DNA from: Cellulomonas uda
GTDB lineage: Bacteria; Actinomycetota; Actinomycetes; Actinomycetales; Cellulomonadaceae
Direction of reading: 5' to 3'
Assembly: GCF_006538705.1 (NCBI RefSeq)
Contig: NZ_BJLP01000005.1
Span: forward strand, 1-64,000
DNA: 64,000 bases
The translations under genes and the position numbers were made by a program. Shown piece by piece: positions 57,504-62,053 of this stretch. How positions within the stretch are numbered: position 1 is the first letter of the stretch; the number at the start of each line of letters is the position of its first letter. Under the pieces are notes generated by a model. The model did no database searches, was not told the origin of the DNA, and saw only the letters and a list, made by a program, of their open reading frames with translations.

Positions 57504-58505
57504 TCACTCGAGCGCGGCGGCGAGACCGCCGTCGGGCCCCACGTGCGCACCGAAGTCCGCGAGCGCCGCGACGCGCCGCGCGCGGGGCGCGTCGCGGTCG
57601 AGCGCGGTCGCGGCGGTCGCCGTGAGGTCCTGCAGCGCGCGGACGCACCGCGCGTACGCGAGCCGGTCCTCGTCGATGTCCACGCGCCCGTAGCCCGTCA
57701 GGAACGCGGCCGACTGCTCGACCGTCACGCGCAGCCCCGGCAGCACGCCCCCGAGCACGAACATCAGGTCCTGCTCGGCGGGTGCCACGCACGCGTGCTC
57801 CCAGTCCAGCAGCGCGACGTCCCGCGGCCCCGTCGCGACCACGTGCCCCACGTGGGCGTCCGCGTGGCAGACGACGAGCGGGACGTCGCGGCCCTGGTCG
57901 CGCAGCCGGTGGCCCGTCCGCACCGCGCGGGCGCGCACGGCGGCGATGCGCGGACCCGCCGCACGCCACGTCTCGGCGGCGGCCCGGGCGGCGGCGTCCC
58001 GCTCGCCCCGCAGCGTGCGCGCGACCTCGTCGTCGATCTCGGCGGTGCGCGCGAGCCGCTCCGTCGGGTCGAACGACTCGCGCGTCAGCCCGGGCACGCT
58101 CGTCGGCGCGAGCGCGTGCACCCGCGCGACGAGCCGACCGAACGCGGTCCACTGCGGCGGCGTCAGCGGCACGTCCCGGCCGGTCGGGCCGTCGAGCCAC
58201 GGCGTGACGGACAGCCGCCCGCCGTCGTGGTCGGCCGCGGGCGCCCCGCGCCGGGTGAGCAGCGGCGGCGCGAACGTCGCCGGTGCCGGCAGGAGCTCCT
58301 GCGGGCGCTGCGGGAGCGTGCGCGCCAGCGCGAGCGCGACCTGCGCGGCCGCGCTCGTCGTCGACGTCCACCGCACGGCGTACCGGCTCGGCCCGACCGT
58401 CGCACGCCACAGCCGGGCGGTGGCGTGCGTGGTCACCGGTTCGAGGGTCTCGACCTCGAGCCCGAAGTCGTCACGCACGCGGTCGCGGACGGCGGTGGTC
58501 GTCAC
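57504..58505 (-). CDS. Aminoglycoside phosphotransferase-like kinase
   Basis: 333 residues of the APH/choline-kinase fold. The catalytic loop is VVCHADAHVGHV and the metal Asp is in LLDWEHACVAPAEQDLMFV. The Asn expected at the end of the HxDxxxxN motif is replaced by His, so activity may be altered. The substrate is unknown; resistance function is not implied. It starts with GTG 58505, without a clear SD. It is convergent with the HAD gene at 56741 (7 bases apart) and divergent from the second HAD gene. Confidence 0.85.
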   Translation of the reverse strand: MTTTAVRDRVRDDFGLEVETLEPVTTHATARLWRATVGPSRYAVRWTSTTSAAAQVALALARTLPQRPQELLPAPATFAPPLLTRRGAPAADHDGGRLSVTPWLDGPTGRDVPLTPPQWTAFGRLVARVHALAPTSVPGLTRESFDPTERLARTAEIDDEVARTLRGERDAAARAAAETWRAAGPRIAAVRARAVRTGHRLRDQGRDVPLVVCHADAHVGHVVATGPRDVALLDWEHACVAPAEQDLMFVLGGVLPGLRVTVEQSAAFLTGYGRVDIDEDRLAYARCVRALQDLTATAATALDRDAPRARRVAALADFGAHVGPDGGLAAALE

Positions 58506-58635
58506 GTGCTGCACGCTAGGCAGCGGGTGTTGCGCCGAGGTTGCCGCCACGTGCCCATCGCGACACATCAGCCTCACGGCGGGCGGACGGGCCACGGCGG
58601 ACAGGGCGCCCGCCGAGCGGTGGCAGGATCTGCGG

Positions 58636-59295
58636 GTGACTGCTGCCGTGCTGCTGGACCTCGACGGGACGCTCATCGACTCCGGTGACGGGGTGGTCGA
58701 CTCCCTGCGCGCGGGGTTCCGCGGCGCCGGCCTGGTCCCGCCCGACGACGCGGTGCTGCGCTCGTTCATCGGCCCGCCCATCCACGACTCCGCGCGGCGC
58801 GTGGGCGTCCCGCCCGAGCTGCACGACGCGGTCGTCGCCGGTTACCAGCGCGCGTTCGCCGAGCGCGGGAACCTCATGGCCCACGTGTTCGACGGGGTGC
58901 CGCGGGCGCTGGCCGGGCTGCGGGCCGCCGGGGCGCGGCTCGTCGTCGCGACCGCCAAGCCGCACACGTTCGCGGTCCCGGTCCTGGAGCACCTGGGCCT
59001 GGCTCCCCTGCTGGACGGCGTGTTCGGCGCACCCGACGACGAGAGCGACACCAAGGGCCAGATCATCGCGCGGGCCGTGGCGTCGCTCGGGCCGGACGTG
59101 CGCGCCGTGATGGTGGGCGACCGCGAGCACGACGTCGAGGGCGCCCGGGAGAACAGGCTGCCCTGCGTCGGCGTGCTGTGGGGCTTCGGCGACCGCGCGG
59201 AGCTCGAGGGCGCGGGCGCGCGGGCCGTCGTGGACTCCCCCGCCGCGCTCGTCGCCGCGGCGCTCGGGCTCGTGGGGCTCAGGCCGACGGCGTGA
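58636..59295 (+). CDS. HAD-family hydrolase (phosphoglycolate phosphatase-like), second copy
   Basis: 219 residues. Motifs: AVLLDLDGTLIDS, VATAKP, TKGQII and MVGDREHDVEGA. It starts directly at the core (GTG 58636), with CAGGAT upstream. The sequence parallels the first HAD protein (FIGPPIHDSAR versus FVGPPLQDSLR), suggesting an old gene duplication around the kinase. Members dephosphorylate small sugar or glycolate phosphates; the substrate is unknown. Confidence 0.9.
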   Translation: MTAAVLLDLDGTLIDSGDGVVDSLRAGFRGAGLVPPDDAVLRSFIGPPIHDSARRVGVPPELHDAVVAGYQRAFAERGNLMAHVFDGVPRALAGLRAAGARLVVATAKPHTFAVPVLEHLGLAPLLDGVFGAPDDESDTKGQIIARAVASLGPDVRAVMVGDREHDVEGARENRLPCVGVLWGFGDRAELEGAGARAVVDSPAALVAAALGLVGLRPTA

Positions 59296-59344
59296 CGGGG
59301 TCGAGCGCCGGGCGAACCGCTCGGACGCACCTCGACCTCCTCGC

Positions 59345-59375
59345 TTGATCTTGACGCGGCGTCAACTCCTACCGT
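59345..59375 (+). promoter_or_regulatory. MerR-type promoter of the TipA-like regulator
   Basis: A -35-like TTGATC (59345-59350) and a -10-like TACCGT (59370-59375) are separated by 19 bases, the over-long spacer typical of MerR-controlled promoters. Within the spacer lies the perfect dyad TTGACG-CGG-CGTCAA (59351-59365). The regulator gene begins 46 bases after the -10. Confidence 0.7.
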
Positions 59376-59421
59376 GGATCTCGTCCGCACGACAGCACGA
59401 CGACCGCACGAAGGAGGAGCG

Positions 59422-60174
59422 ATGGAGGCGTCGATCCAGGAGGTCGCGCGCCTGACGGGCACGACGAGCCGCACGCTGCGGCACTACGACGCGGTCGGCC
59501 TGCTGCCGCCGAGCCGGGTCGCCGCAGGTGGCCACCGCTGGTACGACGACGCCGCGCTCGTCCGGCTGCAACGCATCCTGCTCCTGCGCGAGCTCGGCCT
59601 GGGGCTCAGCGAGATCGGTCGGGTCCTGGACCGCGAGCAGGACGAGGTCGTCGCGCTGCGGCGCCACCTCGCCTGGCTGCGCGACGAGCAGCGCCGGCTG
59701 GAGCGGCTCGTCGCCTCGGTCGAGCGGACGATCACCGCACGAGAGGAAGGAGGGCCTGTGATGGCCGAGGAGATGTTCGACGGGTTCGACCACACGCAGT
59801 ACAAGGACGAGGTCGAGCAGCGCTGGGGCGCCGACGCGTACGCGACCTCGGACGCGTGGTGGCGAGGGATGCCCGACGACGAGAAGAAGGGGTGGCAGGC
59901 GCGCACCGCGCGGCTCGCCGCCGACTGGGCCGCGGCCGCCGCCACGGGCACCGACCCCGCGTCCGACGAGGCGCAGGCGCTCGCCGCCCGCCACGTCGCG
60001 TGGCTCACGTCCATCCCCGGCACCCCGGGCCACGGCACGGGCGCCCCGGTCGAGTACGTGCTGGGCCTGGCCGAGCTCTACGTGGCCGACGAGCGGTTCG
60101 GCGCGACCTACGGCGGCCCGCAGGGCGCCGCGTTCGTGCGCGAGGCCCTGCACGCCTGGGCCGCGTCACGCTGA
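59422..60174 (+). CDS. TipA-like MerR-family regulator
   Basis: 250 residues. The N-terminal MerR DNA-binding domain (IQEVARLTGTTSRTLRHYDAVGLLPPSRV) and a dimerisation helix (about residues 76-108) are followed by a TipAS drug-binding domain (MFDGFDHTQYKDEVEQRWG onward). In Streptomyces, TipAL activates its own promoter when thiopeptides bind; a similar role is inferred. A strong SD lies at 59422. A second SD and ATG at 59761 could give a separate TipAS form. It is convergent with the ABC genes. Confidence 0.92.
   Translation: MEASIQEVARLTGTTSRTLRHYDAVGLLPPSRVAAGGHRWYDDAALVRLQRILLLRELGLGLSEIGRVLDREQDEVVALRRHLAWLRDEQRRLERLVASVERTITAREEGGPVMAEEMFDGFDHTQYKDEVEQRWGADAYATSDAWWRGMPDDEKKGWQARTARLAADWAAAAATGTDPASDEAQALAARHVAWLTSIPGTPGHGTGAPVEYVLGLAELYVADERFGATYGGPQGAAFVREALHAWAASR
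59748..59763 (+). promoter_or_regulatory. Internal ribosome binding site and in-frame start in the TipA-like gene
   Basis: AGGAGG at 59748-59753 is seven bases before ATG 59761, which is in frame (codon 114) and at the start of the TipAS domain. An adjacent GTG at 59758 also fits. The spacing is ideal. It predicts a short ligand-binding protein of 137 residues made from the same mRNA, as for Streptomyces tipA. Confidence 0.7.
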
Positions 60175-60199
60175 ACGCCCCGCCGCGCGCGCTCGGGTG

Positions 60200-62053
60200 C
60201 TACGGCGTGCGCAGCGTGGCCTGCCAGTCGTCGTACAGCTCGGCGAACCGGCCGCCCGCCGTCGCGAGGTCGGCCGGGGCACCGTCCTCGACGACGCGCC
60301 CGCCGTCGACGACGAGCACGCGGTCCGAGCCCATGACGGTCGACAGCCGGTGCGCGATCACCACGGCCGTGCGACCCGCGAGCAGCGTGCGCAGGCCGCG
60401 CTGCACGAGCGCCTCACCGGGGACGTCGAGCGAGCTGGTCGCCTCGTCGAGGATCAGCACGGCCGGGTCGGCCAGGAACGCGCGCGCGAACGCGACGAGC
60501 TGGCGCTGCCCCGCCGACAGCCGCCCGCCGCGCTTGTCGACGAGCGTGTCGTACCCGTCCGGGAGCGACGCCACGAGCTCGTGCACGCCGACGGCACGCG
60601 CCGCCGCCTCGACCTGAGCGCGCGACGCGCCCGGACGGCCGAGCGCGATGTTCGCGGCGACCGACCCGGAGAACAGGTACGACTCCTGCGTCACCATGAC
60701 GACCGCTCGGCGCAGGTCGCCGGGCGCGACGTCGCGCACGTCGACCCCGTCGAGCAGCACCGCTCCCGCCCGCACGTCGTAGAACCGCGCGAGCAGCTTC
60801 GCGACCGTGGACTTGCCCGCGCCCGTCTCGCCGACGAGCGCGAGCGACTGCCCCGCCGGCACGTGCAGGTCGAGCGCGGGCAGCACGCCCGGCCCGTCGC
60901 CGTAGCCGAACTCGACACCCCTGAACCGCACGTCGCCGCGCACCTCACGCAGCGCGACGGGGTGCTGCGGGTCGGGCACCGACGGCTCCTGCGCGAGGAG
61001 CGCCGAGAGCTTCTCGAGCGCCGCGGTCGCCGACTGGAACGAGTTGTAGAACATCCCGATCTGCTGCAGCGGCTGGAAGAACCGCCGCGCGTACAGCACC
61101 GCGGCCACCAGCACCCCCACGTCCAGCCCGTCGTCGAGCACACGCAGGCCGCCGACCAGCAGCACCCCCGCGACCGTGACGTTCCCGATCAGCGTCAGCC
61201 CCGTGTCGAACACGCCGTTGACGCGGATCGCGTCGGCCGTCGTGCGGCGGTAGACCTCGGCCTCCGCGCCGTACACGTGCCCGGCCGCCTCCTCACGACG
61301 GAACGCCTGCACCGCGCGGATGCCCGTCATGGTCTCCACGAACCGCACGATCACGCGCGCGGCGGCGGTCCGGTTGAGGCGGTACTGGCGCTGCGAGCGC
61401 AGCTGGAACCACCGCGTGAGCACCACGCCCGGGACCACCGCGACCAGCAGCACCAGGCCGCTGCGCCAGTCGAGCAGCGCGAGCGACGTCGCGGTGAGCA
61501 CCATCGCGAGCCCGGACGACGCGAGCGTGGTGACACCGCCGTCGAGGAGCTCGCGCAGCGCGTCCGTGTCCGACGTCTGCCGGGAGATGATCCGGCCCGA
61601 GGTGTAGCGCTCGTGGAACTCCAGGCTCAGGCGCTGCGTGTGCCGGAACAGCCGGCCGCGCAGGTCCAGCAGCACCGCCTGGCTCACGCGCGCGGACGCG
61701 CGCACCACCTGCGCGGAGAGCAGGCCTCCCCCGACCGCGAGCACCAGGTACACGCCCGCCGCGACGACGAGCGGACGCGCGTCACCGTCGTCCGCGAGGG
61801 CAGGCAGCGCCGAGTCGATGCCGTAGGCGACGAGCGCGGGCCCGGCGACCGCCGCGAGCTGCGCGAGGACGACGAGCGCGACCGTCCACCACGCGGGTCG
61901 CGCCACCGGGCGCAGCAGCGAGCCGAGCAGCCCGAGCGAGCGGCGGCGGACGACGCGCGGGTCCTCGAGCGCCTCGTCGGACGCCGCGTCCGCGGGCGGC
62001 GGGCCCGCGGACGGCGGGCTCGCGGGCGCCCCGTGGGTCGTGGGTGCCGTCAT
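60200..62053 (-). CDS. ABC exporter half-transporter, canonical nucleotide site
   Basis: 617 residues. An N-terminal charged stretch is followed by six membrane segments and a nucleotide-binding domain: Walker A GETGAGKST, the Q-loop (MVTQESYLFSGSV), signature LSAGQ, Walker B AVLILDEATSSLD (catalytic Glu present) and the His in VIAHRLST. The ATG at 62053 overlaps the stop of the partner gene (ATGA). Together they form a heterodimeric exporter similar to Rv1272c/Rv1273c or TM287/288 (family knowledge). The substrate is unknown. Confidence 0.93.
   Translation of the reverse strand: MTAPTTHGAPASPPSAGPPPADAASDEALEDPRVVRRRSLGLLGSLLRPVARPAWWTVALVVLAQLAAVAGPALVAYGIDSALPALADDGDARPLVVAAGVYLVLAVGGGLLSAQVVRASARVSQAVLLDLRGRLFRHTQRLSLEFHERYTSGRIISRQTSDTDALRELLDGGVTTLASSGLAMVLTATSLALLDWRSGLVLLVAVVPGVVLTRWFQLRSQRQYRLNRTAAARVIVRFVETMTGIRAVQAFRREEAAGHVYGAEAEVYRRTTADAIRVNGVFDTGLTLIGNVTVAGVLLVGGLRVLDDGLDVGVLVAAVLYARRFFQPLQQIGMFYNSFQSATAALEKLSALLAQEPSVPDPQHPVALREVRGDVRFRGVEFGYGDGPGVLPALDLHVPAGQSLALVGETGAGKSTVAKLLARFYDVRAGAVLLDGVDVRDVAPGDLRRAVVMVTQESYLFSGSVAANIALGRPGASRAQVEAAARAVGVHELVASLPDGYDTLVDKRGGRLSAGQRQLVAFARAFLADPAVLILDEATSSLDVPGEALVQRGLRTLLAGRTAVVIAHRLSTVMGSDRVLVVDGGRVVEDGAPADLATAGGRFAELYDDWQATLRTP

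Follow-up and report, generated by a model that had tools for sequence, protein, structure and literature searches.

Codon-level conservation of an internal start in a tipA-like gene of Cellulomonas uda suggests a second, TipAS-like product

Does the tipA-like gene at 59422–60174 of the window (the whole 64,000-nucleotide stretch of Cellulomonas uda DNA analysed here) encode one protein or two? The gene belongs to the TipA class: the MerR and TipAS domains and a 19-nt-spacer promoter with a palindrome are all present. Its protein matches PF13411 (MerR) at the N-terminus with 65.4 bits (cut-off 21.6) and PF07739 (TipAS) at the C-terminus with 99.6 bits (cut-off 23.8), and this gene alone accounts for the PF07739 matches in its genome. 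The nearest solved full-length structures are 3qao and 7cla (SkgA). In Streptomyces lividans, TipAL and TipAS are described as two in-frame products (PMC7762955, PMC2893106). A sequence-only reading of the present gene had proposed a built-in second translation start, and we consider it likely that this is an autoregulated switch of the tipA class making two proteins, a 250-residue activator and an independently started 137-residue TipAS protein (Table 1).

Table 1. Features of the tipA-like locus, in window coordinates
Feature	Position	Strand	Basis
−35 element TTGATC	59345..59350	+	TTGnnn adjoining palindrome in 126/129 orthologues
15-bp palindrome TTGACGCGGCGTCAA, presumed MerR operator, within 19-nt spacer 59351–59369	59351..59365	+	
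−10 element TACCGT, 19 nt past −35	59370..59375	+	
Long-form SD AAGGAGG, 4 nt before ATG 59422	59411..59417	+	
Long form, TipAL-like, 250 aa, MerR DNA-binding and TipAS domains	59422..60174	+	Pfam PF13411, PF07739
MerR_1 DNA-binding domain, residues 4–71	59431..59634	+	Pfam PF13411
Internal SD AAGGAGG	59747..59753	+	Sequence; conserved in orthologues
In-frame GTG just 5′ of internal ATG; possible alternative start, poorly conserved	59758..59760	+	
Internal start ATG, residue 114 of long form	59761..59763	+	ATG/GTG in 129/129 orthologues
Predicted short form, TipAS-like, 137 aa	59761..60174	+	In-frame ORF from internal ATG, Pfam
TipAS domain PF07739, residues 127–246	59800..60159	+	Pfam match

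The AGGAGG at 59748–59753 ends 7 nt upstream of ATG 59761, a codon in the reading frame of ATG 59422, so that the Shine–Dalgarno (SD) motif, its spacing and the 137-residue product of the sequence-only reading are borne out. That reading also placed the ATG exactly where TipAS begins. By alignment the codon does lie at the TipAN/TipAS border of TipAL, in which TipAN is given as residues 1–109 (PMC7762955), but the Pfam match begins only at residue 127, 13 residues past Met114. The pattern AAGGAGG-N4–9-ATG is found three times in the window, where 0.04 occurrences would be expected, and none of 100 shuffles reached three; one occurrence is the main start of the tipA-like gene and another is the internal start. 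The third lies at 2431–2445 on the minus strand. Within the window gene the two SDs are equally long, and the internal site is not the less folded one (−11.2, against −10.9 at the main start). The GTG at 59758 was rejected as the main internal start: a GTG is found there only in the window gene and in the orthologue L003, and the column conserved in relatives is that of ATG 59761.

Conservation was assessed in 129 orthologues fetched from the same taxonomic family, out of at least 149 other matches and with the window copy excluded. The internal codon is ATG in 105 of them and GTG in 21, and the remaining three have an ATG one codon earlier. Valine at this position is encoded by GTG in 21 of 21 cases, though GTG makes up 769 of the 2158 Val codons in these genes, and a quick tree built without the linker implies that ATG and GTG have replaced one another at least 14 times (the three shifted rows not counted). 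At the comparison column Met150 the replacements are CTC (38), CTG (27), CGG (3), TTG (2) and AAG (1), never GTG; the Met118 column is mostly fixed, with ATG in 122 of the 129, GTG and CTG in two each, and ATC, ATT and GCC in one each.

The SD was compared with a null in which synonymous codons were resampled by local codon usage with the peptide kept (200 draws). An energy cut-off of −6 discriminated poorly (129 observed, 115.6 expected) and exact SD matches were used as the measure instead; the mean SD energy does discriminate, at −12.36 observed against −9.65 in the null (s.d. 0.18). An internal SD of at least 5 nt is present in 102 of 129 orthologues, compared with 41.8 in the null (s.d. 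3.8, maximum 51), whereas the best position away from the internal site, in a scan along the rest of the gene, reaches 10 of 129. The sequence-only reading had staked its claim on the SD being conserved in orthologues, and an SD of at least 4 nt is found in 129 of 129 (85.1 in the null). After redundancy reduction at 70% identity 37 genes remain, with an SD z of 8.7; at 60% there are nine genes with a z of 3.6, and at 50% a single gene with a z of 0.3. The mRNA around the internal site (−30 to +21) is more open than in synonymous versions, with a mean folding energy of −9.5 against −14.1 kcal/mol (z 11.6); at seven control positions z ranges from −3.1 to −0.4. Compared with the main start in the 105 orthologues in which the latter was found (it was not in the other 24), the internal site has the longer mean SD (5.50 against 4.56) and is the less folded of the two in 79.

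Alternatively, the SD-like stretch could simply encode a linker peptide, E-G-G, required by the protein, with the second start unused. In the own family, however, the peptide varies (EEGGPV, ENGGPL, EAKEDI, TERRPI, KEALV and others) and the SD stays; it is built from differing codons between genera (GAA-GGA-GGG, GCG-AAG-GAG-GAC, ACC-GAG-AGG-AGG), codon choice strongly favours it over the synonymous null, and the methionine is replaced by GTG only. For this family the linker-peptide explanation was therefore rejected. Since the SD is kept while both codons and peptide vary, selection acting on the internal start is the best reading of these alignments. The second start is, on this codon, SD and folding evidence, very probably real, as the sequence-only reading had proposed, and both products would then be synthesized.

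To see how far the signal reaches we used wider sets, of which those from Actinomycetota and Bacillota are biased to high-scoring matches; reading frames were chosen by HMM. The Actinomycetota set has 92 rows including six genes without a MerR part, and the counts were repeated on the 86 MerR–TipAS genes: 66 have an SD of at least 5 nt, against 40.4 in the null (s.d. 3.5, maximum 50). The motif is not the same throughout. In the window gene AAGGAGG is formed in Glu-Gly-Gly codons at a spacing of 7 nt, whereas in 35 of the 86, which are of the S. lividans-like tipA type, GGAGG is formed in Met-Glu-Ala codons 8 nt before the ATG. The other 51 show an SD of at least 5 nt in 32 cases, against 14.9 in the null (s.d. 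2.5). Twelve of the 92 rows lack the start or have a poor SD; the SD frequency of 66/80 in rows with a start versus 3/12 in those without is partly circular and is not counted as evidence. The genus also contains a second subfamily, 39–45% identical to the window protein, which has ATG in 12 of 12 genes and a weaker SD in nine of them (GAAGGGGG).

In Bacillota (58 genes) the internal Met column has ATG in 55 and GTG in one. It is here that the linker explanation fares best, as the peptide EG(G/R)xxM is so constant that the null almost equals the observed number of SDs of at least 5 nt (28.6 against 30 of 58), with no excess. SDs of at least 6 nt do exceed the null, at 22 against 12.6 (s.d. 2.6), and with the evidence from the own family this leaves the linker explanation only a small probability for the window gene. 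Four plasmid genes from Pseudomonadota have ATG in two cases and TTG or CTG in the two from sphingomonads. Throughout Actinomycetota the sequence signal for an internal start is thus clear; in Bacillota it is weaker, and two of the four Pseudomonadota genes lack it. Two TipAS genes without a MerR part, L183 and L208, start at the homologous Met; in L208 AGGAGG and an ATG lie close behind an upstream frame. TipAS is also found fused to HTH_3 and Zn_ribbon_2 in L215 and L219 (L218 looks alike) and to YjbR in L206.

The 19-base-spacer promoter named in the sequence-only reading is present, and the −35/19 nt/−10 layout lies upstream in 126 of 129 orthologues. The ptipA promoter has the same 19-nt-spacer layout, and an autoregulatory promoter of this type is one likeness to the S. 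lividans system. MerR promoters are described as having 19–20 bp spacers (PMC9909328). A palindrome with at least six of seven pairs is found upstream in 122 of the 129, compared with none of the 129 in each of two intragenic control stretches. The genome to which the window belongs contains one match to TTGACGYNRCGTCAA, upstream of the tipA-like gene. Across the genus 57 of 81 genomes contain the palindrome, 55 of them in a single copy. Grouped by their match to the gene, the genomes that contain it number 44 of the 51 that have an orthologue (E-value under 1e-60; the other seven lack the exact palindrome), 12 of the 17 whose match is intermediate and one of the 13 with neither. All 44 genomes with both palindrome and orthologue have the former upstream of the latter, 43 of them within 150 nt by coordinates; in the 44th (G040) the match begins at residue 105, which inflates the distance by 312 nt. 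In three loci (L301, L302 and L303) the palindrome occurs without a TipAS gene within ∼1.2 kb. As the palindrome is found once in nearly every genome that has it and lies upstream of the orthologue where one is present, the simplest circuit would be a switch that targets only itself, and these patterns support an autoregulatory MerR-type promoter on the gene's own 5′ side, in line with the self-activation that had been proposed.

The short protein could alternatively be made from its own mRNA, started within the gene. Such an internal promoter would need the SD and ATG too, and our scan covered promoters of the σ70 type only. That scan (16–18 nt spacers; 59250–60250, both strands) gave no promoter, which is a weak test in GC-rich DNA; it misses the promoter upstream of the gene because the spacer there is 19 nt. 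For S. lividans the literature describes both forms as being translated in frame from tipA (PMC2893106, PMC7762955), and we regard a separate transcript as very unlikely. Least probable is that the SD-like stretch, which does lie at a domain border, slows the elongating ribosome between the domains for folding without any initiation: a start codon 4–11 nt downstream and open mRNA are both conserved, and pausing requires neither.

The preferred reading remains internal translation initiation on the tipA-like mRNA. A 250-residue MerR–TipAS activator would be started at 59422, and ribosomes would bind the internal SD and independently start the 137-residue TipAS protein at ATG 59761. The TipAS part would bind a small hydrophobic ligand, which may be an antibiotic; the ligand-bound long form would activate its own promoter only, and surplus short form would soak up ligand without contacting DNA. 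By analogy with S. lividans TipAS, the short protein may act as an antibiotic sponge that sequesters the drug.

What the ligand might be can be approached through the binding site. Residues were numbered as in TipAL by anchoring on Met110 of the tipA-like gene L138. Phe123, Tyr131, Val135 and Trp139 are called conserved thiopeptide-contact residues of TipAL (PMC7762955). Among the 129 orthologues Phe123, Val135 and Trp139 are each kept in 129, and position 131 holds Tyr in 85 and His in the remaining 44. All four are present in the window protein; Phe126, a further contact residue, is deleted. No orthologue has a cysteine at the columns of TipAL residues 207 or 214, both of which are also replaced in the window protein, and any cysteine at all in the C-domain is found in eight of 129 and not in the window C-domain. 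One of Cys207 and Cys214 of TipA is presumably the cysteine that reacts with the thiopeptide, and neither is present here. Their absence makes covalent thiopeptide capture as in TipAS unlikely, and suggests non-covalent binding of a ligand that is other than thiostrepton or is held more loosely. A thiostrepton-like ligand, as expected in the sequence-only reading, thus finds no support.

The window gene fits an autoregulated sensor-plus-sponge like TipAL/TipAS, with which it shares the MerR and TipAS architecture and a second, in-frame start located at the corresponding border between domains. It differs from S. lividans TipA in the missing Cys207 and Cys214 and the deletion of Phe126, and the operator appears to be on its own promoter only, whereas TipAL activates multiple genes (PMC7762955). 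AlbA (AlbAL/AlbAS) of Klebsiella oxytoca is likewise an autoregulated MerR sponge with two products, but its TipAS-like domain is doubled and its ligand is albicidin, whereas the window gene has a single TipAS domain. The two albA products were first assumed by analogy with TipA, according to the text of the first structural paper (PMC6078987), and are treated as given in later ones (PMC10189885, PMC12531866). Among TipA-class proteins, SkgA (Caulobacter), Lmo0526 (Listeria) and Mta (Bacillus) have solved full-length structures (7cla, 3qao); the parts of the reports available to us mention no short form. Function and ligands of the class outside S. lividans are stated to be mostly unreported (PMC7762955). 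In the open-access literature we found no paper testing whether the internal start is conserved throughout the class, which is no proof of absence.

What is new here is evidence, drawn from alignments, of a dual start that is widespread and under selection. With codon-level conservation, the assumption of dual products becomes a claim that can be tested for an entire class of regulators. Gene annotation misses what is likely to be a drug-binding protein, and the cysteine-free clade would represent the same circuit with another ligand. A broader account, to which we give about an even chance, would make the internal start an old selected trait of the MerR–TipAS class in Actinomycetota and Bacillota. 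The Glu-Gly-Gly linker would be largely an SD in codons, rebuilt by lineages at other positions and with other codons. Many genes annotated as one ‘MerR regulator’ would specify both a sensor and a sponge as distinct proteins. The reactive cysteines, like the other targets, would have been lost in the present clade, which would now be a one-gene, self-inducing, non-covalent sponge.

The surroundings of the gene were also inspected. Rfam and ARAGORN scans of the window gave no matches. Upstream of the tipA-like gene lies a HAD-type phosphatase gene (58636–59295), and the segment 56840–59295 holds a divergent APH-family phosphotransferase gene (57507–58694, minus strand) between two HAD phosphatase genes. 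In the 29 genus orthologues for which loci of ∼1.5 kb on each side were compared (L003–L031), a similar HAD-type phosphatase gene adjoins 25, a downstream ABC exporter gene 14 and an APH-type gene three.
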